Assembly (NCBI GenBank): GCA_021108395.1
Contig: JAIOQZ010000037.1
Span: 1 to 44,061, forward strand
Origin: Candidatus Cloacimonadota bacterium
GTDB lineage: Bacteria > Cloacimonadota > Cloacimonadia > Cloacimonadales > JAIOQZ01
Direction of reading: 5' to 3'
DNA: 44,061 nt
This document shows positions 7,003 through 35,601 of this stretch, one piece after another (position 1 is the first letter of the stretch; each line of letters opens with the position of its first letter). The notes beneath the pieces are model-generated. The model was not told where the DNA came from and did no database searches. It saw only the letters and a program-made list of their open reading frames with translations. Position numbers and translations under genes: made by a program.

Positions 7003-8652
7003 ATGAAACACGCATCCTGCATTCTTCTTGTATTGTTTTTGGGAACGCAGTTAGTGGCCGATTTGGGGCCATTCCAGTCCATCCTGCGAGACATCCACCG
7101 CCAGTCGGCTCAATTCCAGAACAGCCACGAACACCAGGAGATACGCTCCACGCGAGACCGCGAATACGGCGTCGGCGACCAGGACACATTCTGGCGCTGG
7201 AACCTCACCGTGATGCCACCGGCGTGGGAAACGGAAATCGCCACCTGCCGCGCAGTGGGCGAGCACTGCTATGTCTTCGTCGCCGATAGCGAGTGGGACC
7301 TGCACATGGACCAGGACGATGTCGATCTGGTGCTGGGCTATCTCGAAGACGAGACCATGGCCGGCGACGACTTCGGCGCTATCGAAATGGACACGCTCGC
7401 CTTCGGGCCCATCCCCGACGAGCTTGACAACGATCCGCGCCTAATCGTCTATTACACCGCGCTCGGCAGTTTTAACGGCACTTCTTTCGACGGCTACTTC
7501 AGCTCCTACAACCAAGTCACCGAGGCCCAGGCGCAAATGATGAACCCCTCGGGCCACTCGAACGAGTGCGAGATGATTTATATGACCTGCCACCCGCTCA
7601 ATCCCACCGATCCCATCCGCATCTCGGTGCTGGCGCACGAACTGCAGCACCTCATCCACTGGGGCGGCGACATCAACGAGGATACATGGGTGGACGAAGG
7701 CTGCGCCGAGCTGGCTATGGTGCTGTTTGGCATGCCAGACCCCATCACCAGCTTCAACAGCAACCCCGACAACGACCTCACCAACTGGGACAACACAACC
7801 TTCGCCAGCTACGTCAAGGTGATGCTGTTCTTCACCTACCTCAACGAGCAATATGGTGGCGGCGACTTCATCAAGGACATCGTGAGTGAGCCATTGAACG
7901 GCATCAACGGCCTTCAGGCGCAGCTCGAGGCTTACCACCCCGGTACCTTGTTCGACGACGTATTCTTCGACTGGACAATCGCCAACTACCTCGACGATAC
8001 ATCCATCGACCAGGGACAGTATGGCTACACCGCCCTCGATCTGCCTGGCTTTCATGTGCAGAACCAGAATTCATCCTTTCCGGCTACCGGCAGTGGCAAC
8101 ATGCAGCAATGGGCCTCCGAATACTCTCGCCTGATGCCCCAGCAAAGCATGTCGCTCGCAGGTTGGGCAGAAGCCGACACAGATTTCAACCTGGCGCTGC
8201 TGACTGTCGGTGACGCCGGCATCGACACAACCGTCGAGAAGTTCACTGACGACACTTCCTACTACATCGAAACAGAGTTCTGGGAAGACCTGCACAGCAA
8301 TATCGTCCTGGTGTTCTCCGGCCTCGACAACGATATTGCCTACGAGTACGATATCGTGGACAACACCAGCGTTGACGACGAGACCGTACCCGTTGCGCCG
8401 TTGCGACTGAGCGTGGGGCCCAACCCGTTCCGTGCCACCTCGACGGTGCGTTTCTCGCTCAACCAGGCTGTTGCTGACATGCAAGTGAGCCTGTATGACA
8501 TTCGTGGCCGCCTGGTGCGGGAGCTTCCCGCCGGAATCACCGAGTGGAACGGCTGCGACGCTGAGGGACGCACAGCGCCTTCAGGCGTCTATCTCTATCG
8601 CGTTGAAGCTGATGGCGAGAGCTTTGCCGGCAAACTGCTGTTGACGAGGTAG
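7003..8652 (+). CDS. Secreted HExxH metallopeptidase-like protein with FlgD-Ig/T9SS-like C-terminal domain
   Basis: The 549-residue protein begins with a signal peptide (MKHASCILLVLFLGTQLVA) at an ATG preceded by AAGGAG. Residues 211-234 contain AHELQHLIHW followed by EDTWVDEGCAELA. This is a HExxH zinc site at 212-216 with a downstream conserved glutamate (E232), arranged as in M30 (hyicolysin-like) and related gluzincin peptidases. Residues about 465-549 form a FlgD-Ig-like sorting domain, with VGPNPF, LYDIRGRLVREL and SGVYLYRVEADG. Such proteins are exported and anchored or released at the surface. The ChaN-like gene follows after two bases. The natural substrate is unknown. Confidence 0.8.
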   Translation: MKHASCILLVLFLGTQLVADLGPFQSILRDIHRQSAQFQNSHEHQEIRSTRDREYGVGDQDTFWRWNLTVMPPAWETEIATCRAVGEHCYVFVADSEWDLHMDQDDVDLVLGYLEDETMAGDDFGAIEMDTLAFGPIPDELDNDPRLIVYYTALGSFNGTSFDGYFSSYNQVTEAQAQMMNPSGHSNECEMIYMTCHPLNPTDPIRISVLAHELQHLIHWGGDINEDTWVDEGCAELAMVLFGMPDPITSFNSNPDNDLTNWDNTTFASYVKVMLFFTYLNEQYGGGDFIKDIVSEPLNGINGLQAQLEAYHPGTLFDDVFFDWTIANYLDDTSIDQGQYGYTALDLPGFHVQNQNSSFPATGSGNMQQWASEYSRLMPQQSMSLAGWAEADTDFNLALLTVGDAGIDTTVEKFTDDTSYYIETEFWEDLHSNIVLVFSGLDNDIAYEYDIVDNTSVDDETVPVAPLRLSVGPNPFRATSTVRFSLNQAVADMQVSLYDIRGRLVRELPAGITEWNGCDAEGRTAPSGVYLYRVEADGESFAGKLLLTR

Positions 8653-13723: not shown

Positions 13724-14553
13724 GCGCGCTCCTCAGGGGTTATCGGGTGCTCGACGTACCATGTCTCGCCCAGACTCACCTGCTGCAACCTGTCCACTTC
13801 GGAGTCGAGAATGCGAGAGGCGAGGCGGCGGAACTTCTCTTCGTTATCGCTCACAAAAAATTCATCTCGGCCCACGCCCTCGCTTTCGGAATGGGGCAGC
13901 ATATCCACCAGCCAGGTCGAGACGGCCTCGGCGCTGTCCACCAGCGCGATGTGGTCGCCTACGACCTGGCGCAAGGTTTGCTTGAGAATGGGATAATGCG
14001 TGCAGCCCAGCACCAGCGTGTCGATGTCCGCTTCGAGCAGCGGGGCGAGGTACTCGGCGGCAATCTGGCGGGCGACAGGGTGCTCTTCCCAGCCTTCTTC
14101 GGCCAGCGGCACGAACAGCGGGCACGGCTGGGCAATCACCTCGGCGGCGGGATAGAGCCGCTGGATGGCCTTCTGGTAGGCCCCGCTGCGAATGGTGCCC
14201 TCGGTACCAATGACACCGATGCGGTGACGGCGCGTCAGCTTCTCGGCGGCCAGAGCGCCCGGCTCGATGACGCCGATGACCGGTACGTCGAAGCTGCGTT
14301 CGAGCGTGGGAAGCGCAACGCTGGCGGCAGTGTTGCAGGCCACCACGATAATCTTTGCGCCCTGCTGCCGCAGAAAGCGGGCATTCTGCACCGAGTAGTC
14401 GATGACGGTACCGCGGCTCTTGGGACCATATGGTACGCGGGCTGTGTCGCCAAAATAGACGATGTCCTCGTGAGGAAAGCGGCGGCGAATCTCGCGGAAA
14501 ACCGTGAGACCGCCCACGCCGGAATCGAAGATGCCGATTGGCCGCCTGCTCAC
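13720..14553 (-). CDS. murI: Glutamate racemase
   Basis: MurI converts L-glutamate to D-glutamate for the peptidoglycan stem peptide. The 277-residue protein has GIFDSGVGGLTV at 7-18, YFGDTARVPYG at 33-43, the first catalytic cysteine in VVACNTAAS (C73) and the second in LVLGCTHYPIL (about C184). These are the acid/base pair of the cofactor-independent racemases. It overlaps both neighbours by four bases: the M42 peptidase upstream and the M29-like protein downstream. Confidence 0.97.
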   Translation of the reverse strand: MSRRPIGIFDSGVGGLTVFREIRRRFPHEDIVYFGDTARVPYGPKSRGTVIDYSVQNARFLRQQGAKIIVVACNTAASVALPTLERSFDVPVIGVIEPGALAAEKLTRRHRIGVIGTEGTIRSGAYQKAIQRLYPAAEVIAQPCPLFVPLAEEGWEEHPVARQIAAEYLAPLLEADIDTLVLGCTHYPILKQTLRQVVGDHIALVDSAEAVSTWLVDMLPHSESEGVGRDEFFVSDNEEKFRRLASRILDSEVDRLQQVSLGETWYVEHPITPEERA

Positions 14554-15608
14554 CCCAGAATCCTTTGCAGCATGGCTTTGTCTAATGTGGCAGCGATGTG
14601 CACCAGCAGGCTGATGAGGTTGTCGTAGTCGTCGAGGCTGATGAGGCCGTGATGGCTGTGGGCATAGCGCACGGGCACACCCAGCACAATCGAGGGAACA
14701 CCGCTGTGCGCCAGGTGAACGCGGCCGCCATCGGTGCCGCCGCGACGTCGCACGGTAATCTGCACGGAAATGTCGTGTTCGGCGGCGAGACCGGCCACCC
14801 AGTCCTTCAGCTCGCGGCGCACCAACATGCCAGGGTCATAGGCGCGCAGGTGCACGCCCTTGCCCACACATGCCTGCGGACGGGACAGGCCAAGCGTATC
14901 GTCGGCGGGCGGGCCTTCGATGATGAAGGCGACGTCTGGCTGCACCAGGCTGGTGATGACCTGCGCGCCCCGCAGGCCCACCTCCTCCTGCACGCTGCCA
15001 CCGCAATAGACGGTGTTGGGGTGCTCACGTTCGGCCAGAGTGCGGGTGAGTTCGAGAATGGCGCCCAGTCCGGCGCGGTCGTCGAAGGCCTTCGAGAAGA
15101 GCCTGCGCTTGTCGGGGACGGTGTGCGTGAAGCATTTGGGCACGATTGCATCGCCCAGACAGATGCCGAAGTCGTTCAGTGCCTCGTCGTAACTTGCGGC
15201 GCCAATATCGACGAACAGGTCTTTGATTTCGAGCTTGGATTTATCGGCCAGAAAGTGCATCGGCACCGAACCGAACACGCCGAAGTGACAGCGCCCGTCG
15301 CTGGTGAACACCTCGACCGCGCCGGCCATGAGGGTGCGCGGGTCCCAGCCGCCGATGTTCTGCACCTTCAGCATGCCCGCCGCGGTGATGTCGGCGACGA
15401 TGAAGCCCACTTCATCCATGTGGGCGAGAAAGAGGATGGCCGGTTTGTCGTCGTCGCCGCGATGACGCCAGAGCACCTGGCCCATGTTGTCGTGCAGAAG
15501 GTCGCCGCCGTCGCCGGTTTCCGCCTCGAAGTAACGGCGCACGAGGGATTCGTTTCCAGAGATGCCGGGGGTCTCGCACAAGGTTTGCAAGCGGTCGTAA
15601 CGGTTCAT
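14550..15608 (-). CDS. M42 family metallo-aminopeptidase
   Basis: The 352-residue protein has the full set of M42 (PepA/TET/FrvX-type) motifs: FLAHMDEVGF with the first metal ligands, KAFDDRAGLGAIL with the bridging aspartate, SVQEEVGLRGAQ with the catalytic glutamate pair, a later IIEGPPADDTLG, RRRGGTDGGRVHLA, and a final RYAHSHHG with a His ligand. Members form large self-compartmentalised complexes in the cytoplasm that trim peptides. The gene is the first of the minus-strand unit that continues into murI. A second M42 member is at 33400-34518. The start ATG at 15608 lies next to a purine-rich GGAAGGGG. Confidence 0.92.
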   Translation of the reverse strand: MNRYDRLQTLCETPGISGNESLVRRYFEAETGDGGDLLHDNMGQVLWRHRGDDDKPAILFLAHMDEVGFIVADITAAGMLKVQNIGGWDPRTLMAGAVEVFTSDGRCHFGVFGSVPMHFLADKSKLEIKDLFVDIGAASYDEALNDFGICLGDAIVPKCFTHTVPDKRRLFSKAFDDRAGLGAILELTRTLAEREHPNTVYCGGSVQEEVGLRGAQVITSLVQPDVAFIIEGPPADDTLGLSRPQACVGKGVHLRAYDPGMLVRRELKDWVAGLAAEHDISVQITVRRRGGTDGGRVHLAHSGVPSIVLGVPVRYAHSHHGLISLDDYDNLISLLVHIAATLDKAMLQRILG

Positions 15609-15829: not shown

Positions 15830-18703
15830 ATGGCATCTCGTAAGACAGAACCTCGACTCGTTGCAACGGTTCCAGACACCATCGACATAACGCTGTTGCG
15901 GCCTCACGACATCGTCCCGCATCGCACCAATCTGCTCATCGCCCTGGGCGTGTTCATCGTCACACTGGCGGTATATATGCTCACACAGGCGCTTTCGCTG
16001 TCGTTCTGGGACGCCGGCGAATACATCACCTCATCAAGCATACTGGGCGTGCCGCATCCGCCCGGCAACCCATTCTACATCATTCTGGGCCGCGTGTTCT
16101 GCATACTGGGATTCGGCCTGTCCCACGCCACCATCGTCAATTTCGTCTCCGGCCTGATGAGCGCAATGGCTGTGGCGCTGCTGTATCTCATCACCACCAA
16201 GCTGGTGAGCATGTTCGAGAAGAACCCGCTGCTGATAGTGTTCACCGGACTGCTGGCGGCGTTCTATTGCGCCTTCTCCTACACCTACTGGACAAACGCC
16301 ATCGAGGCGGAGGTGTATGCCGGGCTGGCGCTCACGCTCAATCTGGTGATGTATCTCACGCTGGTGTGGGTGCAAAAGCAGCGCGATTTCTCGCACCAGA
16401 ACCTGCTGCTGCTCATCGTCTATATCTTTTTCCTGGGTTTCTGCATCCACCAAACCTCGCTGCAGATTGCCCCGGCAGTGCTGTTCATCGCGGTTTACCC
16501 GATGCTGCTGAAGCACATCAAGACGTTCAACTTCTGGATGCGCACCGGCATATACTTCATCATTCTCATCGCCATGTACGCCATCATCGACCCTATCGGC
16601 AAAGGCATACGCCTGCCCGACCTTTCCAAGCTGTTCATGTTCGTCGCCGTTGTGGGGCTTATCATGTGGCACATGCGCGACAAAGTGAAAGGCCGCACCT
16701 GGTGGCTGGCGCTGATATTTCTGCTGCTGGGGCTCACACCGCACATTTACCTGATGGTGCGTGCAGCGCAACGTCCGTTCATGAACGAGGGCATCCCCTC
16801 GAACCTGAAGATGTTCGGCGACTATGTGCTGCGCCGCCAGTACGGCGTAACCAGTTTCTTCCAGCGGCGTTTCCTGATAGAACCACACGGCCAGAACACA
16901 CCGTTCATGATCGGTCTGTTCGGCCAGTTCCGCCAGTTCCTCGAATACTTTGGCTGGCAGTTCTTTCACGCCGAGACGCTGTCCCGCTGGTTCTCGACAC
17001 CGGCGCAGGTGTTCCGTTTCCTGGGCAACCTGGTGATGGTGGGCGCTGGCGTGGGCGGCCTGGTGGTGCATTTCCGCCGCAACAGGCACAGTTGGGCATA
17101 CCTCGCCATGCTTTTCTTCTGGAGCAGCCTCGCCATGGTGGCGGTGATGAACATCTCTCACGCCGAGCCGCGCCCGCGTGATTACTTCTATGTGAACGCC
17201 TACTACCTGTGGGGCGTGTGGATGGCCATCGGCTTTGTGGCGCTGGTGCGCCAGGCGCTGAACTACCGCAAGGCGCTGGGCTATGCCGTCGCAGCGCTGA
17301 TGACGCTGCTGTGCGTGCTCAACGCGGCCAGTATGTGGCATATTCACGACCGCACCCGCGAGGTGGTGGCGCTTGACTACGGCCAGAACTTCCTCAACAG
17401 CCTCGAAGAAAACGCCATCGTCTTCACCAACGGCGACAACGACACCTTCCCCCTGTGGTACGTTCAGGCTGTGGCCGATCCGCTGGCGCACGAAAACATC
17501 TGGCCGGCGCGAAACATCTACCCCACCGAGCACACAAACCAGATCATTTTCGAGGCGCTCGAATACAAGATCAGCGAGTGCAACGGCATTCGCCTCGATG
17601 TGACAATCGCCAACCTCAGCCTGCTCAACACTGGCTGGTACATTCGCCAGTTGCGCGATAAAGAGGGCATCGAGTTCAACATCGCCGACTCGCTCATCAC
17701 GCCCGACGTCTTTGGCACCGTGCTGGCGCAGCAGCGCATCCGGCGCGATCTGCGCATCAGCGAGCGGTCGCCTGCCGGCCACCTGCGCACCAACGTGATC
17801 CCGGTAAACACCATCCTCAACACCGCCGACCTCGCCACTCTGCGCCTCGTAAAGGACAACTGGGGCAAGCGCCCCATCTACTTCGCCGTCACCATTCCCG
17901 ACGGCGTCATCCGGCGGCTCGGCCTCGAGCCCTTCCTGCGCAACGAGGGCATGGTTGACCGCCTGGTGGCGCAGCCCGGCCAGGATGCCGACATCGAGCG
18001 CCTGCTGGCCAATATCGATGAGATATACAGCTATCGCGGTATCGGCGACGACAGCGTCTTTAAGGACGACAACTCCACCCGTCTGCTGGGCAACTATGGC
18101 CACGCCTACATCATCGTCGCCTCGAAACACTTCCTCGATATCGGCGACTATGACAACGCCATCTACTATATGGAAGAAGGCCTGAAGTTCGTGAAGGACA
18201 ATGAACGCCTGCTGCCTGGCCTGGCGCAGATATATATGCGCGCCGACCGCCCCGATGAGGCGCACGAGATAGCCCGGCGCGCAATTGAGTATAGTGACCG
18301 CGACCTTGTGGCGCTCTATCTCGAACTATCGCAGACATATACCGATCTTGGGCAACCAGACAAGGGCATCGAGGTCATCGAGGAGGCAGTGGCCATGCAA
18401 CCAGACAATGCGACATTGCAGGTGCAGTGTGGCTATGTCTATCTTGACAACGAAGACCCTGAAACTGCCTTCGAGCGATTCAACGAAGCTGTGCGACTGA
18501 AACCCCACGACAACTCGCTGCCGCAGATTCTGTTCAACGCAACCCTCGAAGCAGGGCGCTACGACCTCGGCATCGCCGCGCTGCAAAGCATACGCGTCAT
18601 GCGCAACGCCCCTGCCGCCGATGACGCCAGCGACCAGATTTCGCGCTTCATCCGGCAGCTCGAGCGCCTGCAAACCACCGCCGACAGCATCCTGCCGGAG
18701 TAA
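15830..18703 (+). CDS. DUF2723 membrane protein with C-terminal TPR repeats (glycosyltransferase-like)
   Basis: The 957-residue protein has an N-terminal DUF2723 region starting near residue 40. It shows the family hallmark LSFWDAGEYITSSSILGVPHPPGNPFY, whose Asp-Glu sits in the first luminal loop as in protein O-mannosyltransferase-like GT-C enzymes. About ten hydrophobic segments follow up to about residue 500. A soluble domain then carries FTNGDNDTFPLWY, and TPR-like helical repeats occupy about 770-930. DUF2723 is common in Bacteroidetes and related phyla. The sugar donor and acceptor are unknown. It is followed after two bases by the TagF-like gene, then by lipid A genes, which suggests a role in surface glycan assembly. 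Confidence 0.85.
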   Translation: MASRKTEPRLVATVPDTIDITLLRPHDIVPHRTNLLIALGVFIVTLAVYMLTQALSLSFWDAGEYITSSSILGVPHPPGNPFYIILGRVFCILGFGLSHATIVNFVSGLMSAMAVALLYLITTKLVSMFEKNPLLIVFTGLLAAFYCAFSYTYWTNAIEAEVYAGLALTLNLVMYLTLVWVQKQRDFSHQNLLLLIVYIFFLGFCIHQTSLQIAPAVLFIAVYPMLLKHIKTFNFWMRTGIYFIILIAMYAIIDPIGKGIRLPDLSKLFMFVAVVGLIMWHMRDKVKGRTWWLALIFLLLGLTPHIYLMVRAAQRPFMNEGIPSNLKMFGDYVLRRQYGVTSFFQRRFLIEPHGQNTPFMIGLFGQFRQFLEYFGWQFFHAETLSRWFSTPAQVFRFLGNLVMVGAGVGGLVVHFRRNRHSWAYLAMLFFWSSLAMVAVMNISHAEPRPRDYFYVNAYYLWGVWMAIGFVALVRQALNYRKALGYAVAALMTLLCVLNAASMWHIHDRTREVVALDYGQNFLNSLEENAIVFTNGDNDTFPLWYVQAVADPLAHENIWPARNIYPTEHTNQIIFEALEYKISECNGIRLDVTIANLSLLNTGWYIRQLRDKEGIEFNIADSLITPDVFGTVLAQQRIRRDLRISERSPAGHLRTNVIPVNTILNTADLATLRLVKDNWGKRPIYFAVTIPDGVIRRLGLEPFLRNEGMVDRLVAQPGQDADIERLLANIDEIYSYRGIGDDSVFKDDNSTRLLGNYGHAYIIVASKHFLDIGDYDNAIYYMEEGLKFVKDNERLLPGLAQIYMRADRPDEAHEIARRAIEYSDRDLVALYLELSQTYTDLGQPDKGIEVIEEAVAMQPDNATLQVQCGYVYLDNEDPETAFERFNEAVRLKPHDNSLPQILFNATLEAGRYDLGIAALQSIRVMRNAPAADDASDQISRFIRQLERLQTTADSILPE

Positions 18704-18705
18704 CC

Positions 18706-21234
18706 ATGCGGCTGCTCTTCTTTCTCGAACGTGAGCTGCACCTGCCCGTGCTGGCTCCATTGATGCACGAGGCACATCGGCGTGGGCTGGGTGAGATCGG
18801 CATCTACTCGGTTTCCTATGTGGCCTCGACGGAAGGCGTTCCTGGTCGCGGACTGCGACAAAGCGTGGTCGAGCAGATGGTGAACGTGCCCTTTCAACTC
18901 GTGTCAGACCCGCACCAGTGGCGCCCGGACATCACCTTCATGGCCGATTTCAGCTATCAGTTCGTCGAGGGGCTGGGCAAGCTGGTAAACGTGGGACACG
19001 GCACCATCGGCAAGGGCTGGTTCTTCTCGCGGCAGCTCATCAGTCGGCGTGAAAACTGCGCCGACCTGCTGTGCGTTCCGGGCGAGATTCACGCCGAGGC
19101 GTTGAGCGACCAAGTGTTCATCCCGATTGCCGTCACCGGCATGCCCAAGCTCGACGCGGTGTTTCGCGGCGACTACAACCGCGAGGACATCCTGCGCCGT
19201 CACGGCCTCGACCCCGGCAATAAAACGGCGCTGTTCGCCCCCACGTTCAACAGCGAGCTCTCCATCGTGCCGCACATCGGCCACGACCTGCGCCGCTACA
19301 TCCCCGACTATCTCAACATCTTCATCAAGCTGCACGGCGCCGCGCCCGAAGACCAGAAACGCGCCTACCGCGCCTTTGCCGAGTCGCACCCCAACGTTGC
19401 CTGTAGCGAGGAGATGGACATCGGCCCGGCCTTTGCCGCCTGCGACGTTCTGCTCACCGATGTCAGCTCGGTTATCTACGAGTTCCTGGCGCTGGGCAAG
19501 CCGGTGGTGCTGTTCGACAGCCCCACCATGGCCAACTATGCCGGTTATGACGAGAATGACCTCGAACACCGCTACCGCGACGCCGGTTGCCGCTTTTCCG
19601 ACATGCAGCGCCTGCCCGATTGCCTTTCGCGCAGCCTGCTCTCGCCCATCAGCGAGCCGCTGCGCCAGCTTGGCCGCCGCTTTGTGAGCAAGCAGGACGG
19701 CAACAGCGCCGGCCTTGTGCTGGACGCCGCGCTCGAACTGCACGAGCAGCCGCGAGCCTCAATTATCATCCGTGACAGCGGTGGCGAGAACCTGCCACGC
19801 CTGCTGTCCTTGTGGAGCGACCGCTATCAACTGCTGGTGAGTAGTCCACAGCAAGACAGAGCCGACGGCGCGGTGTGGCTGCAGCCCACCGACAGCGCCT
19901 TCGAGATATTGCAGAAGGCCATGCCGCATGTGAATACAGACAAGATTATCTATTTCGACAGCGCCTGGCTGCCCTCGCCCCTGCTGCCCGACTTTCTTCT
20001 CATGCACCTGCGCTTCGACGAGACCGCCGGCATCGTGTATCCTCTGCGGCAGGGCAGCGACTATAACGGCATCCAGAGTCTGGGGCTGCATGTGCGCTTT
20101 CAGCAGAATGTCTCCCCCGATGTCATGGGATGGCAGCTTACCTACAGCATGACAGGCCGCGCCAAGCCGGTTGATGTGCTCGATTCACCGGTGTTCGCTT
20201 TGCGCCCCGAAGCCTGGTGCGACCAGCTCACCAACCCCGCCGACGAACGCCTGAGTTGGCTTGAACTGCTGCGCCATGCCCACATGAATGGCCTCGGCCC
20301 CCGCCTCGCCCTCGACACCTGCGTCCGTCCCGACCAGGCGACGGCTTTGCCGCAGAGCGCACAGCGCTGCCAAACCAGCCACAATGAGCCGCCGGCCGGC
20401 GAGCAGAAAGATGCCAGCGAAGATGATGAATCAACCCGGCTGCTGCAAGCCATCGAGGACGACCCATCCGATACAAACGCCCTCAAGAGGTTCATCCGCC
20501 ACTGCTTCAAACTGGGCAAATGGGATATGGTGGATGTGTATGCCGCCATGTTGCCCGCAGATGCCGAGGCGACACTGCTGCACGCTCGCTCGCTGATGCA
20601 GCAGGACTTGGGCGACCATGCCCTTGTTGTGCTCGAAAAGATTGATACCCTGAGCATCACTGACGGTGGCCTGCTGTTCGAGATATTGAACGAACGTGGC
20701 CGCTTGCTGGTAAAGACCCAGCGCCTGGACGAAGCAAGGCATCACCTCGAAGAGGCGTTGCGGCTGCGCCCCGACGCCACGCGGGCGCTGGTGAACCTGG
20801 GCACCTGCCTGCTGGTGTGCAACCTCCCCAGCGAAGCCGCCGAGCATTTCGAGGACGCGCTGCGTCACGACTCGGCGCACATCGACGCACGCTTCGGCCT
20901 GGGGTTGGCAAACCATGCACAACAACGCTTTGATGAAGCCGAAAGCTGCTTTGGCCGCATCCTCGACCTCGAGCCCAGCCACATGAAAACACTGAACACG
21001 ATGCTACAGTTCGCCTACGAAAGCCGTCGCTTCGCCTCGGTGGAGCAACGGTTGCAGTGCCACCTCGACCGCAATCCCGCGGATGACAACATGCGCTTCG
21101 TGCTGGCCGGCGTGCTCTATGAGCAAGAAAAGCCGACACAGGCCCTCGAGGCGGTGGAGCGCGTACTGCAAAGCGACCCCGACTTCCGTGGCGGCGCCGA
21201 ACTGCGCGACCGCATAAACAACAAAACGCATTGA
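18706..21234 (+). CDS. Three-part protein: TagF-like glycerophosphotransferase, glycosyltransferase-like middle, TPR tail
   Basis: Residues about 80-345 resemble the CDP-glycerol glycerophosphotransferase family (TagF/TarF): VNVGHGTIGKGWFFS, VTGMPKLDAVF, LFAPTFNSEL, FIKLHGAAPED, and the donor-site segment LLTDVSSVIYEFLALGKPVVLFD. Residues about 350-560 (IIIRDSGGENLPRLLSLW and onwards) look like a degenerate glycosyltransferase-type fold but lack a clear DxD. Residues about 590-842 are TPR repeats. In Gram-positives TagF builds teichoic acid; in a lipid A cluster of a Gram-negative it more likely transfers a polyol phosphate or sugar to a surface glycan. The 842-residue size makes this an unusual fusion. 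Confidence 0.78.
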   Translation: MRLLFFLERELHLPVLAPLMHEAHRRGLGEIGIYSVSYVASTEGVPGRGLRQSVVEQMVNVPFQLVSDPHQWRPDITFMADFSYQFVEGLGKLVNVGHGTIGKGWFFSRQLISRRENCADLLCVPGEIHAEALSDQVFIPIAVTGMPKLDAVFRGDYNREDILRRHGLDPGNKTALFAPTFNSELSIVPHIGHDLRRYIPDYLNIFIKLHGAAPEDQKRAYRAFAESHPNVACSEEMDIGPAFAACDVLLTDVSSVIYEFLALGKPVVLFDSPTMANYAGYDENDLEHRYRDAGCRFSDMQRLPDCLSRSLLSPISEPLRQLGRRFVSKQDGNSAGLVLDAALELHEQPRASIIIRDSGGENLPRLLSLWSDRYQLLVSSPQQDRADGAVWLQPTDSAFEILQKAMPHVNTDKIIYFDSAWLPSPLLPDFLLMHLRFDETAGIVYPLRQGSDYNGIQSLGLHVRFQQNVSPDVMGWQLTYSMTGRAKPVDVLDSPVFALRPEAWCDQLTNPADERLSWLELLRHAHMNGLGPRLALDTCVRPDQATALPQSAQRCQTSHNEPPAGEQKDASEDDESTRLLQAIEDDPSDTNALKRFIRHCFKLGKWDMVDVYAAMLPADAEATLLHARSLMQQDLGDHALVVLEKIDTLSITDGGLLFEILNERGRLLVKTQRLDEARHHLEEALRLRPDATRALVNLGTCLLVCNLPSEAAEHFEDALRHDSAHIDARFGLGLANHAQQRFDEAESCFGRILDLEPSHMKTLNTMLQFAYESRRFASVEQRLQCHLDRNPADDNMRFVLAGVLYEQEKPTQALEAVERVLQSDPDFRGGAELRDRINNKTH

Positions 21235-21279: not shown

Positions 21280-21828
21280 ATGTATAGACTCGCCTTCATC
21301 GCCCTGCTGCTTCTGGCCGTCGTTGGCCTCAGCGCCGCGAAGTCAACCCTGGGCTACATCGACAGCGAACGCATCCTGAATGAAAGCGACGACGCCAGGG
21401 AAGCGCAAAAGCTGTTTGAAACCGAGATGGATGCCTGGGAAGCTCAGATTGGCGAACTCGAAGCCGAAATCGAGTTGCTCAAAATCGAGTATGAAAACAA
21501 GCGGCTGGTGCTTACCGAAGCAGGCCACACAGAAGCCCAGGACGCCATCGCCGCCGCAGAAGACGAACTCGATCAGGTCATTGAGAACATCTATGGAGAG
21601 AACGGGGAAGCAGCGCGCGCAAACAGCGAACTGCTGGAACCAGTGATGACCAAGCTGACCGAAGCAATCAAGAGGGTGGCGGACGAGAACGACCTCGAGA
21701 TGATTCTGGACGCCGCTGCCGGAGGGCTGCTCTACGCAATCCCCGACCTCGACTATACCGACTTCGTTCTCGAGCAGATGAACACCAGCTCTGTCGCGCC
21801 GGATTTTCCGGCAAGTGACGAGGAATGA
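21280..21828 (+). CDS. skp: OmpH/Skp-family periplasmic chaperone
   Basis: The 182-residue protein has a cleavable signal peptide ending near LSAAKS, then GYIDSERILNES, the conserved start of the OmpH/Skp family. A long charged coiled-coil helix follows (about residues 45-125, rich in E, L, K and A). Skp trimers hold unfolded outer-membrane proteins in the periplasm. The position directly before lpxD is conserved in many Gram-negatives. A GGAGG ribosome binding site precedes the ATG. The last about 25 residues are acidic and extend beyond the usual core. The stop overlaps the lpxD start (ATGA). Confidence 0.85.
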   Translation: MYRLAFIALLLLAVVGLSAAKSTLGYIDSERILNESDDAREAQKLFETEMDAWEAQIGELEAEIELLKIEYENKRLVLTEAGHTEAQDAIAAAEDELDQVIENIYGENGEAARANSELLEPVMTKLTEAIKRVADENDLEMILDAAAGGLLYAIPDLDYTDFVLEQMNTSSVAPDFPASDEE

Positions 21829-22868
21829 AACAGTTTCGGCAGCGACTGACTGTCGGCGAGATTTCTCGGCGACTGGGCACCACTGCGACAATCCGGTTCG
21901 AGACGGCGCTGGACAACGTTGCCGAGCTGCACGAGGCCAACGAGCGTTCCATTTGCTTTCTTGAAAGCCCCGCCTACATCGAGAAGGCGAAGACATCGCT
22001 GCCGGGGTTGCTCATTGTACCGGCAGAGACTGATATTGACGGCTTTCCGCGACACAACCTTCTGCCTGTTCCGCAACCGTACGTGGCTTTCATGCTGCTG
22101 GTGCGAGGGTGGCTGGCCACCGAGGACTCCCACCTGCCGCACAGCGTCCATCCCACTGCAATCGTGCATGAAAGCGCCCGCCTGGGTGACAACGTGCATG
22201 TGGGCCCATACGCCGTCATTGGCGCTAACTGCGCAGTTGGCGAAAACACCGTCATCGGCCCGCACTGTGTACTGCAATGCAACGTGACGATAGGCAAAGA
22301 CTGCCGGCTCATCGCCCGCGTTACGCTCTATGACGACACCGAGCTGGGCGAGAGGGTCATCGTGCACGCCGGTGCGGTATTGGGCGCCGATGGCTTTGGC
22401 TATCTGTTCCACGATGGCCGCCAGGAAAAGATCCCTCAGGTTGGCCGCGTGGTAGTGGGCAACGACGTCGAGATTGGCGCCGGCAGCTGCATCGACCGTG
22501 CCACGCTGGGCATAACACACATCGCCGATGGCGTAAAAATCGACAACCTGGTGCAGGTGGGGCACAACTGCAATGTAGGCAAACACACCGTATTGTGCGC
22601 CCAGGTGGGCCTTGCCGGCGGCACAAACATCGGCAAACGCTGCTATCTCGCCGGACAGGTAGGCACCGGCGGGCACCTCACCATCGGCGACGACGTCCTG
22701 GTGGGCGGGCAGTCGGGGGTTTCCGGCGACATCCCAAGCGGCGCAAAATACTTCGGCTCACCAGCCCTGGAAGCTAACCATACAAAGCGTATGTTCATGT
22801 CACTGAAGCAACTGCCCGACATCCTCAAGCCACTGAAAAAGCTGATAAAAGAACAAAACAAACGATAA
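21825..22868 (+). CDS. lpxD: UDP-3-O-acylglucosamine N-acyltransferase
   Basis: LpxD adds the N-linked acyl chain in the third step of lipid A synthesis. The 347-residue protein has the N-terminal uridine-binding domain (about 1-100), a left-handed beta-helix of hexapeptide repeats (about 105-310, for example HPTAIVHESARLG and NVHVGPYAVIG), and the catalytic histidine in VQVGHNCNVG (H247). A C-terminal helix (KQLPDILKPLKKLIKEQ) closes the trimer. The start overlaps the skp stop by four bases, and the lpxC/fabZ gene follows after 10 bases. Confidence 0.95.
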   Translation: MKQFRQRLTVGEISRRLGTTATIRFETALDNVAELHEANERSICFLESPAYIEKAKTSLPGLLIVPAETDIDGFPRHNLLPVPQPYVAFMLLVRGWLATEDSHLPHSVHPTAIVHESARLGDNVHVGPYAVIGANCAVGENTVIGPHCVLQCNVTIGKDCRLIARVTLYDDTELGERVIVHAGAVLGADGFGYLFHDGRQEKIPQVGRVVVGNDVEIGAGSCIDRATLGITHIADGVKIDNLVQVGHNCNVGKHTVLCAQVGLAGGTNIGKRCYLAGQVGTGGHLTIGDDVLVGGQSGVSGDIPSGAKYFGSPALEANHTKRMFMSLKQLPDILKPLKKLIKEQNKR

Positions 22869-22878
22869 GGGTTGTCCA

Positions 22879-24270
22879 ATGAAAGAGATGAAAAAAACCA
22901 TCGCCGGACAGACAAGCTATACCGGCATTGGCCTGCACTACGGCCAGATTGCCACGATCACGTTCCGTCCCGCCGGCGAGAACGACGGAATCATCATTGT
23001 GCGCACCGACCTGCCCGGCAAGCCCGAAATTCCCGCCGACATCGATCATGTGACCGACATCTCACGTGGTACCACCATCGGCATCAAAGACGCCACAGTG
23101 GCTACGGTGGAGCATGTGCTGGCGGCCATCAAAGGCCTCGACATCGACAACATCCGCATCGAGATCAACGGTCCCGAGGCCCCCGTTGCCGACGGCAGCG
23201 CACTGGTCTTTCTCGAACTGCTCGAAGAAGTGGGCGTGGTCGAGCAGAACGTCGAGCGCGAGTACTTCGAACTTACCGAGCCCATCAATTTCAGTGCGCC
23301 AGAGGATAACGTCGATATCGTCATCGTCCCCTCGAACGAGCTGAAGGTCACCTTCATGGTTGACTACAAGCAGCCGTCGATGGGTACGCAATATACCTGG
23401 CTGCCGTCGATGAAGTCGTTCAAAAAGGAGTTTGCTCCGGCGCGCACGTTCTGCTTCCTGCATGAGATTGTCATGCTCAAGGAGAAAGGCCTCATCAAGG
23501 GCGGCTCGCTGGATAACGCCATCGTTTTCGCCGATGTGGAAACCAACGCCGAAGAGCTTGAGCGGGTGAAAGATATGTTTGACTACCGCGACACCATCAC
23601 CATTGACAAGGATGGATTTCTCAATCAAACGCCCCTGCGCTTTCGCAATGAACCGGTGCGTCACAAAGTGCTCGACCTCATCGGCGACATCGCCTTGTTG
23701 GGCGTACCCATCAAGGGACATATCCTGGCGGCGCGTAGCGGACACAAAACCAACGTGGCGCTGGTAAAAAAGCTGCGCCAAATGCACGAGACCCAGAAGC
23801 TGCAAAAAGCCTTTCAGGACAAGAAACTGAAGAACGTGGTGTTCGACATCAACGCCATCATGCGCATCCTGCCGCATCGCTACCCGTTCCTGCTGGTGGA
23901 CAAGATTATCGAGTTCGAGGGCGGCAAGCGCATCACCGGCATCAAGAACGTCACCATCAACGAACCGTTTTTTCAGGGGCATTTCCCCGGCCATCCAGTC
24001 ATGCCGGGTGTGCTCATTGTCGAGGCCATGGCCCAGACAGGCGGCATAATGCTGCTGAACACCTACTCGGAACCCGAAAAATATCTCGCCTACTTCGCCA
24101 GCATCGACAAGGTGAAATTCCGCAAGCCGGTGATGCCTGGCGACACTCTGCGCTTCGAGCTCGAGGTTATCTCGCTCAAACGCAGCATTGCAAAGATGCA
24201 CGGTGACGCTTTTGTAGGCCAGACCAAGGTGTGTGAGTGTGACCTGATGGCAAAAGTGGTGAAAAAGTAA
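22879..24270 (+). CDS. lpxC/fabZ: Bifunctional LpxC deacetylase / FabZ dehydratase
   Basis: The 463-residue protein joins two enzymes. Residues 1-305 are LpxC, the zinc-dependent UDP-3-O-acyl-GlcNAc deacetylase that commits to lipid A. The zinc ligands are H79 (TVEHVLAAI), H262 and D266 (RHKVLDLIGD), and NGPEAPVADGSA lies near 97-108. Residues about 315-463 are FabZ, the 3-hydroxyacyl-ACP dehydratase, with LPHRYPFLLVDKI and FQGHFPGHPVMPGVLIVEAMAQ (365-386) holding the catalytic His and Glu. The fusion is well known in Bacteroidetes, Chlorobi and relatives. It links the supply of hydroxyacyl chains to lipid A synthesis. Confidence 0.97.
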   Translation: MKEMKKTIAGQTSYTGIGLHYGQIATITFRPAGENDGIIIVRTDLPGKPEIPADIDHVTDISRGTTIGIKDATVATVEHVLAAIKGLDIDNIRIEINGPEAPVADGSALVFLELLEEVGVVEQNVEREYFELTEPINFSAPEDNVDIVIVPSNELKVTFMVDYKQPSMGTQYTWLPSMKSFKKEFAPARTFCFLHEIVMLKEKGLIKGGSLDNAIVFADVETNAEELERVKDMFDYRDTITIDKDGFLNQTPLRFRNEPVRHKVLDLIGDIALLGVPIKGHILAARSGHKTNVALVKKLRQMHETQKLQKAFQDKKLKNVVFDINAIMRILPHRYPFLLVDKIIEFEGGKRITGIKNVTINEPFFQGHFPGHPVMPGVLIVEAMAQTGGIMLLNTYSEPEKYLAYFASIDKVKFRKPVMPGDTLRFELEVISLKRSIAKMHGDAFVGQTKVCECDLMAKVVKK

Positions 24271-24283
24271 CGGGGAGGGAACT

Positions 24284-25066
24284 ATGAGCCACATCCACCC
24301 CACCGCAATCGTACACGAGGACGCCCAACTGGGCAACAACGTCAAGATTGGCCCCTGGTGCATAGTGGGCGGGAACGTCAAGATTGGCGACGACTCCATC
24401 CTCTACTCGAACGTTGTCGTTGACGGCGATACCGAAATCGGTGAGAACAACCGCATCTTCCATTCCGCTGTGCTGGGCACCGAGCCGCAGGACTTGAAAT
24501 ACCAGGGCGACCCGACGCGCCTCGTCATCGGCAGCAATAACAGCATCCGCGAATTCGTCACCATCAACCGTTCCGCCACCCTCGACGAACCCGTCACCGT
24601 AGGCGACGGCAGCCTGCTGATGGCCTACTGCCACGTCGCCCACAATTGCCACATCGGCAACGGGGTCATCATCGCCAACGCCGTGAACCTGGCAGGCCAT
24701 GTCCACATTGGCGACTCCGTCATCATCGGTGGCATGACCGCCGTGCACCAGTTCGTCAAAATTGGCCGCTATGCCTTTGTGGGCGGCGCTTCCGGCGTGA
24801 AGAAAGACGTGCCGCCGTTCACGCGGGGCGAGGGCATGCCCTACCGCGTTGTCGGGCTGAACAGCGTGGGCCTGCAACGCAGGGGATTTTCTACCGCGCA
24901 GATTGACTCTGTCCGCGAGATTTACAAGCACTTTTACCAGAGCGGGCACAATGTGAGCGACGCTCTGGACGCTGTGAGCGAACTGGGCGAGCTGACAGCC
25001 GAGCAGCAGGCTTTTGTCGATTTCATCCGCGCCGCCGACAGGGGAATCTGTCGCGCGAGGGGGTGA
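24284..25066 (+). CDS. lpxA: UDP-N-acetylglucosamine acyltransferase
   Basis: LpxA performs the first step of lipid A synthesis, moving a hydroxyacyl chain from ACP to the 3-OH of UDP-GlcNAc. The 260-residue length is standard. Hexapeptide repeats form a left-handed beta-helix from residue 4. The catalytic His is in CHVAHNCHIGN (H120), and the acyl-ruler and UDP-binding region follows with GGMTAVHQFVKIG. The helical C-terminus (AEQQAFVDFI) is present. A GGGAGGG ribosome binding site precedes the ATG. It closes the lipid A gene set. Confidence 0.97.
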   Translation: MSHIHPTAIVHEDAQLGNNVKIGPWCIVGGNVKIGDDSILYSNVVVDGDTEIGENNRIFHSAVLGTEPQDLKYQGDPTRLVIGSNNSIREFVTINRSATLDEPVTVGDGSLLMAYCHVAHNCHIGNGVIIANAVNLAGHVHIGDSVIIGGMTAVHQFVKIGRYAFVGGASGVKKDVPPFTRGEGMPYRVVGLNSVGLQRRGFSTAQIDSVREIYKHFYQSGHNVSDALDAVSELGELTAEQQAFVDFIRAADRGICRARG

Positions 25067-25124: not shown

Positions 25125-25790
25125 ATGAAGAAACTGCTATGGTTTGCGATACCCATGCTGACGCTTCTGCTCACCGGCTGCTCGGAGGATGGCGAGATCA
25201 GTGTCACCAACGGCACACAGGGCTGGATGAACGTCACAATCGATGGAGACGGGCCAATCGAGCTCGCTCCCGATGAAACCGTTTCAAAATCCTGGAGCCT
25301 GGCCACATCCATCTTTGGCGACGACAGCCAAGATATCGATTTGCACTACACAGGGCTGTTCATTTTCAGTGGTATGCGTTCCTATTCAATCAAGGCCGGC
25401 TATCACAAATACGTTACCCTCGATGCCGACGGCGGCGCTATTCGTGTATTCAACACCTCAGCTGCCTACACCATCACCGAGGTGTATATCTCACCCAACT
25501 CCGACACTGAATGGGGCGACAACGATCTCAGCGGCGACATTGGGCCCGGCGGCAGCGCCACCTGGACGGTCTCGCCGGGAATCTGGGACATCAGAGTGGT
25601 GGACAACCTGAACGAAGAATACACCCTTTTTGGACTGAACATCATCCTCGGCAGCATATTCTCCTACTACTATCCAGGTTTTGGCGCCATCAGCGGGCTA
25701 GAAGACATCAAGTCCGCGGCGCAACCGAGCGCACTGAACCTCACGCCCCGCGTTCAGCAGATATACGACCCATCGCCGCCGGCTCGCTGA
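25125..25790 (+). CDS. Lipoprotein of unknown function
   Basis: The 221-residue protein starts with a lipoprotein signal peptide: MKKLLWFAIPMLTLLLTGCSED, with lipobox LTGC and the modified cysteine at residue 19. The mature part is rich in Gly, Ser, Thr and aromatic residues and predicts mainly beta strands. I do not recognise a family. A strong GGAGGGG ribosome binding site lies before the ATG. It follows lpxA on the same strand after 58 bases and may be the last gene of the envelope cluster. Confidence 0.75.
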   Translation: MKKLLWFAIPMLTLLLTGCSEDGEISVTNGTQGWMNVTIDGDGPIELAPDETVSKSWSLATSIFGDDSQDIDLHYTGLFIFSGMRSYSIKAGYHKYVTLDADGGAIRVFNTSAAYTITEVYISPNSDTEWGDNDLSGDIGPGGSATWTVSPGIWDIRVVDNLNEEYTLFGLNIILGSIFSYYYPGFGAISGLEDIKSAAQPSALNLTPRVQQIYDPSPPAR

Positions 25791-30075: not shown

Positions 30076-31101
30076 TCAGCCTGAAGTATCCTTTGGATAC
30101 CCCTGCGGGTTTTGCAGTTGCCAGCGCCAGGCATCGGCGCACATGGCATCGAGATTTCGTGTGGCCTGCCAGCCGAGTTCACGCCGGGCCTTGCCGGGGT
30201 CTGCCCAGCTTGTGGGGATATCGCCTGCTCTGCGCGAGGCTATGCGATAGGCAATCCTGCGTCCGCTGGCGCTCTCGAAGGCGGCAATGACTTCGAGCAC
30301 GCTATAGCCGCGACCGGTACCCAGACTATGGATGTGTAGCCCGGTGTTGTCTGCCAGAAAGTTCAGCGCGGCGGCGTGGCCATCGGCGAGGTCCATCACA
30401 TGGATGTAATCACGCACGCCGGTGCCGTCTGGCGTTGGCCAGTCATCGCCAAAAACGGATAGTTCTTCGCGTCTGCCCACCGCTACCTGCGCGATGAACG
30501 GCAAAAGGTTGTTGGGAGGGCCGTCAGGGGCCTCGCCGATGCGGCCGCTGAGGTGCGCTCCCACCGGATTGAAATAGCGCAGCAGGCTGACGCGCCACGA
30601 GGGGTCGGCAGCGACCAGATCGATACAGATGCGCTCGATCATCAGTTTGGTGCGCCCATATGGATTGGCAGGATTCAGCGGGGCGTCCTCGGTGATGGGA
30701 AAAGTGTCCGGCTCGCCATAAACGGTGGCCGATGAACTGAACACCAGCGTGCGTACGTTGTAGTCCTGCATAGCCTGTAGCAGGTTCAGCGTTCCTGTCA
30801 CGTTGTTGCGATAATACAGCAGCGGCTGTTCGACAGACTCGCCCACCGCCTTGCGTCCAGCGAAGTGAATCACGCCATCGGGTTGCTCAATGGCCATCAC
30901 GTTGCGCACGGCTTGCTCGTCGAGCAAGTCCACCTGGTGAAAGGCGACAGCCTTGCCGGCGAGTTCCTCTACACGACGCACAGCCTCGCGGCTGCTGTTT
31001 GACAGGTCATCGAGAATGGCGATGTCGTGGCCGGCTTCGAGCAGCACAACGCAGGTGTGGCTGCCGATGTATCCGGCGCCGCCGGTAATTAATAATTTCA
31101 T
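30076..31101 (-). CDS. galE: UDP-glucose 4-epimerase
   Basis: The 341-residue short-chain dehydrogenase-type enzyme interconverts UDP-glucose and UDP-galactose using bound NAD. It has the N-terminal Rossmann motif LLITGGAGYIGSHT (3-16), LDDLSNSS, FAGRKAVGESVE, the serine motif VFSSSATVYGEP, the catalytic YxxxK in NPYGRTKLMIE, and YFNPVGAHLSGRIGE, which is diagnostic of GalE. It is the last gene of the minus-strand heptose cluster and overlaps hddC by four bases. It probably supplies galactose for the same surface glycan. Confidence 0.95.
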   Translation of the reverse strand: MKLLITGGAGYIGSHTCVVLLEAGHDIAILDDLSNSSREAVRRVEELAGKAVAFHQVDLLDEQAVRNVMAIEQPDGVIHFAGRKAVGESVEQPLLYYRNNVTGTLNLLQAMQDYNVRTLVFSSSATVYGEPDTFPITEDAPLNPANPYGRTKLMIERICIDLVAADPSWRVSLLRYFNPVGAHLSGRIGEAPDGPPNNLLPFIAQVAVGRREELSVFGDDWPTPDGTGVRDYIHVMDLADGHAAALNFLADNTGLHIHSLGTGRGYSVLEVIAAFESASGRRIAYRIASRRAGDIPTSWADPGKARRELGWQATRNLDAMCADAWRWQLQNPQGYPKDTSG

Positions 31102-31808
31102 CGTTGCTCCTTCGGTTCAGGCAATATTTGCTCGGCGCGCTGTAAATCTTCGGGCACGCCAATGTCGAGAAAGGTGGTGTGCGTGTTGAACGCAAACAGC
31201 CGCAGGTGCGCCGCTTCCGCCTGCAATATGTCGCGTTCCAGCGAGAACGCCTCGCCTGCCCTGCGCCCCGCCAGCGCTTCTCGCTCGATGGCATACACTC
31301 CGCCGTTGATGAGGCCCTCGCCCTGCTCGCCCTTTTCGGCAAACCCCAGCACCTGGCCGTCTGCGCCGAGGCGCAATGCGCCGTAACGGAATGTATCGTT
31401 CACTCGGGCGGCAGACAGCGTGATGTCGGCGCGGGTGTGGCGGTGATGCCGCAGCAGCGCTGCAATGTCGATGGGGAACCAGGTGTCGCCGTTGACCACG
31501 CACACGGTGTCGGCGGTGGTGTGTTCGAGCGCCAGCCGCACAGCGCCGCCAGTGCCCAGCGGTGTTTCTTCGACGCTGTAGCTCACAGGCGTGCCGCGCC
31601 AGTGGTGGCCCACGAAGTCAACTATCGGGCCGCGCAAGTGGCTCACGGCGAGGATAATGCGCGGCGCCTGCTGGGCAACGAGCCAGTCCAGCACATAGGC
31701 CAGAAACGGCCTGCCGTGCACCGGCGCCATTGCCTTGGGCAGGTTGGGCAAAACACCTTGCAGGCGGGTACCCAGTCCGCCGGCCAGCACGATTGTCTCA
31801 GCGGTCAT
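31098..31808 (-). CDS. hddC: Nucleotidyltransferase, probable D-glycero-alpha-D-manno-heptose 1-phosphate guanylyltransferase
   Basis: The 236-residue protein has the sugar-nucleotidyltransferase start IVLAGGLGTRLQG, followed by NLPKAMAPVHGRPFL, then EETPLGTGGAV and the metal-binding VVNGDTWFPID. Together with the adjacent gmhA and hddA it fits HddC, which makes GDP-D-glycero-alpha-D-manno-heptose for S-layer glycans or lipopolysaccharide. Other sugar-1-phosphate transferases look similar, so the substrate rests on the neighbours. It overlaps gmhA by 11 bases and galE by 4. Confidence 0.85.
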   Translation of the reverse strand: MTAETIVLAGGLGTRLQGVLPNLPKAMAPVHGRPFLAYVLDWLVAQQAPRIILAVSHLRGPIVDFVGHHWRGTPVSYSVEETPLGTGGAVRLALEHTTADTVCVVNGDTWFPIDIAALLRHHRHTRADITLSAARVNDTFRYGALRLGADGQVLGFAEKGEQGEGLINGGVYAIEREALAGRRAGEAFSLERDILQAEAAHLRLFAFNTHTTFLDIGVPEDLQRAEQILPEPKEQR

Positions 31809-32385
31809 CGCGGGGGAAAAGCTCGCACTCCACCAGTTCGCACAGAATGTGCCCCAGCGTGATGTGAAGCTCCTGAATGCGTGGCGTGGCAGCGCTGGGC
31901 GCGTTCAGCAGGATGTCGCAGGCGTCCTTCATTTTGCCGCCGCTGTGGCCGGTGAACGCCACGATACTCATGCCAATGTCGCGGGCGGTCTGCATGGCTC
32001 GCAGCACATTGGGCGAGTTGCCCGAAGTGGAGAGGCACACCAGCACATCGCCGGGCTTGCCGATGCCGCGCACCATGCGCGCAAACACCTCGTCATAGCC
32101 ATAGTCGTTGGCCACGGCGGTAAGGTAACTGGTGTTCACGTGAAGCGCCTCGGCAGGCAAGGGTGGACGGTCATACAAAAAGCGCCCGCTGAGCTCGGCG
32201 GCGAGGTGCTGGGCATCGGCGGCGCTACCGCCATTGCCGCAGAACAGCGCCTTGCCGTCGGCGCGAAGGCTGTCGCACAGCAGGCGGGCAGCCGACTCTA
32301 CGCGCTCGAGCAGGGCGTCGTCGTTCAGTACAAGGCGCTTCACCTCGATCGAGGCTTCGAGCGCCTCCCGTATTCGTTGTCTCAT
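31798..32385 (-). CDS. gmhA: Sedoheptulose 7-phosphate isomerase
   Basis: GmhA turns sedoheptulose 7-phosphate into D-glycero-D-manno-heptose 7-phosphate, the first step of heptose synthesis. The 195-residue SIS-domain protein has GNGGSAADAQHLAAELSGR, the conserved substrate loop with the metal-site His and Glu, VCLSTSGNSPNVL (the phosphate-binding SxSGxS type loop), and a late LHITLGHILCELVE with the second His. It lies between hddA and hddC and overlaps both. Confidence 0.95.
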   Translation of the reverse strand: MRQRIREALEASIEVKRLVLNDDALLERVESAARLLCDSLRADGKALFCGNGGSAADAQHLAAELSGRFLYDRPPLPAEALHVNTSYLTAVANDYGYDEVFARMVRGIGKPGDVLVCLSTSGNSPNVLRAMQTARDIGMSIVAFTGHSGGKMKDACDILLNAPSAATPRIQELHITLGHILCELVECELFPRDDR

Positions 32386-33389: not shown

Positions 33390-33399
33390 AGATACTCCT

Positions 33400-34518: not shown

Positions 34519-34525
34519 AGAGGAC

Positions 34526-35546: not shown

Positions 35547-35601
35547 TTAATTGTTTGCGCGGGAATGAATTTTGCATGTCAACGCTATACGGGGAGGAGC
35601 C

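Follow-up and report, generated by a model that had tools for sequence, protein, structure and literature searches.

A TagF-like protein with a degenerate glycosyltransferase domain and a tetratricopeptide repeat tail, encoded beside lipid A genes in Cloacimonadota

TagF-like transferases are a known kind of enzyme, with tetratricopeptide repeat (TPR)-bearing forms in Gram-negatives. TagF itself is a wall teichoic acid polymerase from a Gram-positive teichoic acid locus, with a GT-B glycosyltransferase fold and conserved histidines (PDB 3l7i-3l7m; Staphylococcus epidermidis according to PMC5974469, which we cite throughout from excerpts, as we do PMC11666461 and PMC11292533). The capsule polymerases Cps3D and Cps7D join a TagF-like domain, an active second glycosyltransferase-type domain and TPRs in one chain (PDB 8qoy; PMC5974469, PMC11666461). 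TPR truncations of both enzymes lost poly(glycerol-3-phosphate) (poly(Gro3P)) elongation and still elongated capsule fragments (PMC11666461), and the Cps1B TPR mediates oligomerization and is dispensable for activity (PMC5974469). Five active-site motifs have been named for TagF-like enzymes (PMC5974469). A further TagF-like enzyme, the transition transferase Cps7A, moves glycerol-phosphate from cytidine diphosphate (CDP)-glycerol onto 3-deoxy-D-manno-octulosonic acid (Kdo; PMC11666461). Here we describe an 842-residue protein – hereafter the TagF-TPR protein – encoded in a 44,061-nucleotide stretch of DNA from a Candidatus Cloacimonadota bacterium (contig JAIOQZ010000037.1, analyzed at full length and called the window), in which a TagF-like domain is followed by a degenerate GT-A-like domain and a TPR tail.

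Envelope features described for Cloacimonadota include poly-gamma-glutamate and a halomucin-like protein (excerpts of PMC8542988). The main text of that paper uses none of the words lipopolysaccharide, teichoic or lipid A, and lipopolysaccharide is likewise missing from that of PMC13082233. In our searches of the open-licence literature, most of it seen as listings, we found no report of a fusion of TagF-like, degenerate GT-A and C-terminal TPR domains beside lipid A or lipopolysaccharide (LPS)-export genes in this phylum.

Sequence families and predicted structure both identify the N-terminal domain. The Pfam family Glyphos_transf (PF04464) matched residues 119-279 at 54.3 bits (cut-off 22.1). 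An AlphaFold model of residues 1-547 (mc297c6e72131), built from a 40-row alignment, reached a mean predicted local distance difference test (pLDDT) score of 93.3 and a predicted template modelling score of 0.92. Its top fold match was TagF (3l7l; Z 26.4 over 326 residues, root-mean-square deviation 3.8, 15% identity), which starts at model residue 1 and spans residues 1-352. Cps3D (8qoy) was second at Z 24.8, followed by a tied group made up of TarL (8va1, Z 23.6), a capsule multienzyme (8a0c, which we take to be Bcs3; Z 23.2) and the 2-epimerase NeuC (5zlr, Z 22.6). Consistent with a TagF-type domain, H98 is kept in all 33 covering rows of the 40-row alignment and H210 in all 39; judging from their motifs, these are presumably its two catalytic histidines. 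The loss of donor-site residues that had been raised as a possible objection to this domain assignment is not seen at these two histidines, the residues compared.

The middle region required a profile comparison. Residues 346-547 of the window protein, searched singly, matched no Pfam family at E values up to 0.5. Compared by hhalign with a five-row GT2 profile, an 18-row alignment of the region scored 96.2% (E 2.7e-9), against a maximum of 0.2% for ten column-shuffled control alignments; the GT-A assignment rests on this comparison, in which Pfam confirmed one profile sequence (from locus L061) as GT2 and the others were picked by eye. Searched one at a time, five of the 18 members matched Glycos_transf_2 (E up to 0.5; best 1.9e-7). 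A sequence search of the PDB gave weak glycosyltransferase matches (best E 0.0013), and the fold matches of the residue 1-547 model barely test this domain. At the metal-binding DxD site the window protein reads DSA (residues 418-420), and D-x-D occurs in five of the 18 covering rows. As judged from sequence, the active second glycosyltransferase domain that TagF-like capsule polymerases possess is lacking here, and the middle region is a predicted GT-A-type domain with a non-conserved metal site. The first-pass annotation, which had called it a degenerate transferase, was thus right in kind, given the GT2 profile match and the unconserved DxD.

In the C-terminal third, Pfam detected many TPR families, and the TPR part resembled the TPR superhelix of OGT (1w3b; Z 21.6, model mdf5e31196b8f). 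The TagF-TPR protein therefore has, at residues 568-842, the TPR domain that is present in most TagF-like capsule polymerases. A model of the whole protein from seven rows had a mean pLDDT of 69.9 and was poor outside the TPR part, and TPR matches crowded its fold searches.

We then asked how widely this architecture occurs, searching 124 genomes of the phylum, 106 of them of the window's order (G and L labels denote relatives' genomes and loci; G000 is the genome of the window). The three-part protein was present in nine of the 124 genomes – G000, G001, G003, G004, G007, G009, G016, G020 and G023, which include a C-terminal fragment (G001), a genome that is 64% complete (G023) and one that is 97% complete (G004) – and in nine of the 106 genomes of the order. 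These carriers fall in families f1, f3, f4, f7 and f9; the listed genomes of families f8 and f10 had distant single-domain TagF-like matches or none. A scan of named contigs with two short peptide patterns, which was not exhaustive, found homologues in Candidatus Cloacimonadota, six of them full-length among 13 loci; these are the same loci as those of G003, G004, G007, G009, G020 and G023. A tree built from 30 TagF domains placed the eight TPR-type proteins together, but weakly (support 0.61); support was 0.95 for a group of three shorter paralogues lacking TPRs and 1.0 for the one formed by the N-terminal domains of six tandem proteins. Among the Cloacimonadota sequences of the tandem proteins' C-terminal type stood one from Bacteroidota.

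Six other full-length homologues, 34-39% identical to the window protein, align with it end to end, so the three-part architecture goes beyond chance. This bears out the earlier description of one protein that joins a TagF-like N-terminus to a degenerate transferase-like middle and, at its end, TPRs. TagF-type residues, among them both histidines, D252, S254-V256 and Y258-F260, do not vary across these seven proteins. Their invariance speaks against the idea that the protein is an inactive TPR adaptor, whose GT-B and dead GT-A folds persist only to recruit envelope enzymes: such residues should disappear from a mere scaffold, just as the DxD did from the middle domain. That domain's degeneracy and the nature of TPRs as binding modules do fit an adaptor, which we nevertheless regard as very improbable. 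On the sequence evidence, the conserved fusion of an apparently live GT-B domain with a degenerate GT-A domain may represent a pseudo-glycosyltransferase kept as a platform, an idea that can be tested.

The CDP-activated donors of TagF-type enzymes are cytoplasmic. No clear membrane segment shows in the hydropathy of the TagF-TPR protein (best 19-residue value 1.5), and the chain begins directly at the first GT-B strand. For these reasons it should reside in the cytoplasm, at the membrane. We propose that it is a cytoplasmic TagF-like polyol-phosphate transferase acting on the LPS core or on another envelope glycolipid – a proposal whose chances of being right or wrong we judge to be even. The N-terminal GT-B domain would bind a CDP-activated polyol, most likely carrying glycerol-phosphate, and donate its polyol-phosphate to a glycolipid on the inner membrane's inner face. 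The acceptor would most likely be LPS, at its Kdo/core end, or else a different lipid-linked glycan of the surface. The GT-A-like middle, whose metal site is lost in most homologues, might serve as a scaffold or acceptor platform, and the TPR tail might dimerize the enzyme or hand the acceptor to a partner.

This decorating or priming role on an LPS-core or lipid-linked acceptor is suggested by analogy with Cps7A: the glycerol-phosphate-to-Kdo step is borrowed from that enzyme, which we compare with the TagF-TPR protein by description. A fusion to a GT-A or TPR domain is not mentioned for Cps7A in the excerpts of PMC11666461. Relative to TagF, the TagF-TPR protein has additional degenerate GT-A and TPR domains, and its gene neighbors lipid A genes in a genome of Gram-negative type. 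In contrast to Cps3D and Cps7D, its second glycosyltransferase domain is degenerate and its gene lies outside a capsule cluster; the TPRs are C-terminal, whereas those of Cps3D are N-terminal. If the proposal holds, a candidate phylum would have teichoic-acid-type chemistry at its outer membrane, and the protein would join Cps7A as the second TagF-like enzyme that places polyol-phosphate on a Kdo glycolipid.

Family matches and coordinates confirm that the TagF-TPR gene follows a gene for a DUF2723 protein with TPRs and precedes skp-lpxD-lpxC/fabZ-lpxA (Table 1), as had been noted at the outset. Its start lies 2 nucleotides beyond the DUF2723 stop, and the gaps from TagF-TPR through skp, lpxD and lpxC/fabZ to lpxA are 45, -4, 10 and 13 nucleotides, all on one strand. 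Judged by spacing, the run from the DUF2723 gene to lpxA looks like one transcription unit; promoter-like and terminator-like sites showed no excess over shuffled sequence. We found no capsule gene cluster around the TagF-TPR gene, its neighbors being an M42 peptidase gene, the DUF2723 gene, skp, lpxD, lpxC/fabZ and lpxA.

Table 1. The TagF-TPR gene, its domains and its neighbors in the window (aa, amino acids)
Feature	Position	Strand	Details	Evidence
TagF-TPR protein, open reading frame (ORF)	18706..21234	+	842 aa	ORF calling
TagF-like GT-B polyol-phosphate transferase domain	18706..19755	+	aa 1-350	Pfam, predicted fold, histidines
Family histidine H98	18997-18999	+		GHG motif
Family histidine H210	19333-19335	+		KLHG motif
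Degenerate GT-A (GT2-like) domain, predicted	19741..20346	+	aa 346-547	hhalign against GT2
TPR superhelix	20407..21231	+	aa 568-842	Pfam TPR families, fold match
DUF2723/TMEM260-like membrane protein, upstream neighbor	15830..18703	+	957 aa, C-terminal TPR	PF11028, 127.1 bits (cut-off 24.2)
OmpH/Skp-like periplasmic chaperone	21280..21828	+		PF03938, 90.8 bits
lpxD	21825..22868	+		TIGR01853, 349.1 bits
lpxC/fabZ fusion	22879..24270	+		NF009667, 640.7 bits
lpxA	24284..25066	+		TIGR01852, 340.4 bits

Links to LPS genes were observed in two lineages. We found lpxD in 37 of 39 genomes, and 24 of the 25 lpxD loci that we fetched carry skp and lpxC/fabZ (the 25th ends at a contig edge). Among these 25 loci, TagF-TPR precedes skp-lpxD only in G000 and G001. 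Two genomes of a single genus, G009 and G020, instead have kdsC-lptC-lptA followed by TagF-TPR and then a DUF6754 protein (LptC, the LptA-type protein and DUF6754 assigned by Pfam in G020; kdsC and all G009 labels by eye). Linkage to lipid A genes was thus observed only within the window's family, and LPS-export genes adjoin in one other genus. In G016 and G023 the gene after TagF-TPR is the same, by eye, as in G009 and G020, but lptA is not there. In G003 and G007 the gene adjoins HDOD-domain genes.

We observed that carriers tend to encode a second, larger TagF-like protein, joined where seen to other glycosyltransferases and present in eight of the 124 genomes. It has two TagF-like domains in G000 (2,522 residues), G001, G003, G004, G007 and G011, and a single one in what is visible of it in G009 and G020; the large proteins of G000 and G011 were scanned with Pfam, which in G011 gave just the two TagF-like domains. 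The large protein occurs in seven of nine TagF-TPR carriers and in one of 115 non-carriers (seven genomes with both, two with TagF-TPR only, one with the large protein only, 114 with neither; Fisher p 3.8e-9, a value that is confounded and inflated by shared ancestry). This protein is perhaps the partner to which the TPR tail would deliver an acceptor. A more elaborate version of our proposal seems to us doubtful: some Cloacimonadota would build a Gram-negative, LPS-anchored analogue of teichoic acid, for which the TagF-TPR protein, encoded with lipid A or LPS-export genes, would prime Kdo/core as a transition transferase, and the larger, often tandem TagF multi-glycosyltransferase protein would polymerize polyol-phosphate.

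In the window's genome, the 2,522-residue protein (L044:10632-18200, contig C13) comprises methyltransferase-like, GT2, GT4 and two TagF-like domains, and further glycosyltransferase and asparagine-synthase genes lie near it. Upstream of the large protein, a protein with multiple membrane segments and C-terminal TPRs is encoded in G000, G011 and G020, three of the four genomes in which this position is visible (the TPR match in G020, at 26.0 bits, is just below the cut-off of 27). The fourth, G004, has an asparagine-synthase-like gene there (by eye), and the other four loci are cut by contig ends. A membrane protein with a TPR tail beside a TagF-like protein therefore recurs at another locus. 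These upstream membrane proteins (L049:6484-8715, L052:11213-13312 and that of G000 contig C13) share an early DDGN motif in addition to the C-terminal TPRs.

CDP-glycerol is our leading guess for the donor. Relatives in two other phyla give some context: in locus L061, from a Bacteroidota metagenome-assembled genome (MAG), a TagF-like relative occurs with GpsA (glycerol-3-phosphate dehydrogenase) and a nucleotidyltransferase, and in locus L065, from a Pseudomonadales MAG, the gene directly upstream of a TagF-like relative is TagD-like, its best family being TIGR01518 at 113.5 bits, short of the 165.4 cut-off. Seven of the nine carriers have a close match to the L061 nucleotidyltransferase, and distant paralogues of it stand beside single-domain TagF-like genes in G080, G113, G114, G115 and G123. 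As a candidate for the missing CDP-polyol synthase it is not specific (matches in 44 of 124 genomes at E 1e-15), and we treat it as a lead only.

Besides the shared ancestry behind the co-occurrence, several observations weigh against an LPS-directed polyol-phosphate transferase. LPS genes adjoin TagF-TPR in just four of nine carriers, from two lineages, and the remaining carriers have HDOD, DUF1232, DUF6754-like or unrelated genes as neighbors. lpxD occurs without TagF-TPR in 29 of 39 genomes, and the carrier G004, at 97% completeness, has no lpxD match at E 1e-30. TagD (TIGR01518) exceeded its cut-off in none of the 18 Cloacimonadota genomes searched, 17 of which have a match below it; the cut-off is strict, being passed by only two of 14 control genomes. 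In G000, the nucleotidyltransferase candidate, at C9:73627-74325, adjoins a PilT-like gene, and it occurs in many genomes that lack TagF-TPR.

TagD-based CDP-glycerol supply in G000 was rejected, as its sole TIGR01518 match is the C-terminal domain of HldE, and we found no clear CDP-glycerol synthase in that genome. Five of the six best TagD matches across the 18 genomes are likewise HldE C-terminal domains. The sixth is an ambiguous stand-alone 136-residue cytidylyltransferase-like protein of G009 (L176:214-624, contig C230; 84.8 bits for TagD against 78.2 for the HldE C-terminal domain).

A different substrate is an alternative: we consider it possible, if less probable than our proposal, that the protein moves ribitol-phosphate, hexose-phosphate or phosphocholine onto capsule or O-antigen and not onto the LPS core, its lipid A neighborhood in the window being accidental. 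The failure of TagD matches to pass the cut-off and the five of nine carriers without LPS-gene neighbors are consistent with this alternative, as is the fold likeness to TarL, whose matched structure is bound to CDP-ribitol; TagF-like domains are able to transfer glycerol- or hexose-phosphate (PMC5974469). However, TagF is closer in fold than TarL (Z 26.4 against 23.6), and the relatives in two other phyla adjoin genes of glycerol-phosphate type, both of which favor our original proposal of a glycerol-phosphate transferase.

We also considered the DUF2723 gene as a functional partner. Its product matches PF11028 (TMEM260-like), which we take to be the former DUF2723. Like TMEM260, it has a C-terminal TPR region (PMC11292533); it is a protein separate from the TagF-TPR protein and is not conserved as its neighbor. 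The first-pass annotation had suggested that the two proteins could form a surface-glycan system tied to lipid A export and dock, through their TPR tails, on each other or on a common partner. Such a system, in which the TagF enzyme would build or modify a glycan that DUF2723 attaches across the membrane, could account for the 2-nucleotide spacing in the window's genome and for the TPR-tailed membrane proteins that precede the second TagF-like gene. The G001 contig that carries DUF2723 stops 20 nucleotides past the stop codon of that gene, and the TagF-TPR contig starts within the TagF-TPR gene, contig ends that are compatible with adjacency, which is thus possible in the window's family beyond G000.

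A survey of the other carriers argues the other way. DUF2723 is absent beside TagF-TPR in seven of the eight – one of which, G023, lacks any DUF2723 match – and the eighth is G001, so that the pairing is nearly unique to the window's genome and was rejected as a general rule. DUF2723 itself was found in 33 of 39 genomes searched, the window's own included, with varied neighbors in the loci read; TagF-TPR is far rarer in the order. The two kinds of TPR-tailed membrane protein matched by profile at 80.7% across the C-terminal TPR part and not the membrane part, and since the membrane parts stay unaligned, a shared GT-C fold is not supported.

Topology points in the same direction. A crude hydropathy count, which leaves the exact number uncertain, predicts 11 hydrophobic segments for the DUF2723 protein; with the N-terminus inside, its C-terminal TPR would lie outside, and the tail is probably periplasmic. 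Consistent with this, the TPR-bearing tail of human TMEM260 is described as lying in the lumen of the endoplasmic reticulum (PMC11292533). Because the two TPR tails are predicted to be on opposite sides of the membrane, docking between them is unlikely, and we hold a joint DUF2723/TagF-TPR glycosylation system to be unlikely as well. From the earlier suggestion, the plausible links to surface-glycan and LPS genes survive; the DUF2723 pairing as a conserved system does not.

Other genes of the window were annotated along the way. Two M42 aminopeptidase genes are present (14550-15608 and 33400-34554, both on the minus strand), and a 221-residue ORF 3' of lpxA (25125-25790, plus strand) matched neither Pfam (E up to 1) nor NCBIfam (E up to 0.01). 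Consecutive genes at 30076-33434 (minus strand) encode GalE, an HddC-like nucleotidyltransferase, GmhA and an HddA-like kinase and resemble a guanosine diphosphate (GDP)-D-glycero-manno-heptose pathway, with HddA, HddC and GmhA model scores under the curated cut-offs. Two plus-strand genes, whose CHU_C and Por_Secre_tail matches are under cut-off, encode candidate cargo of type IX secretion: at 35572-38595 a PGA_cap/PKD protein whose tail is FlgD_ig/CHU_C-like, and at 7003-8652 a protein ending in a FlgD_ig/Por_Secre_tail-like region.

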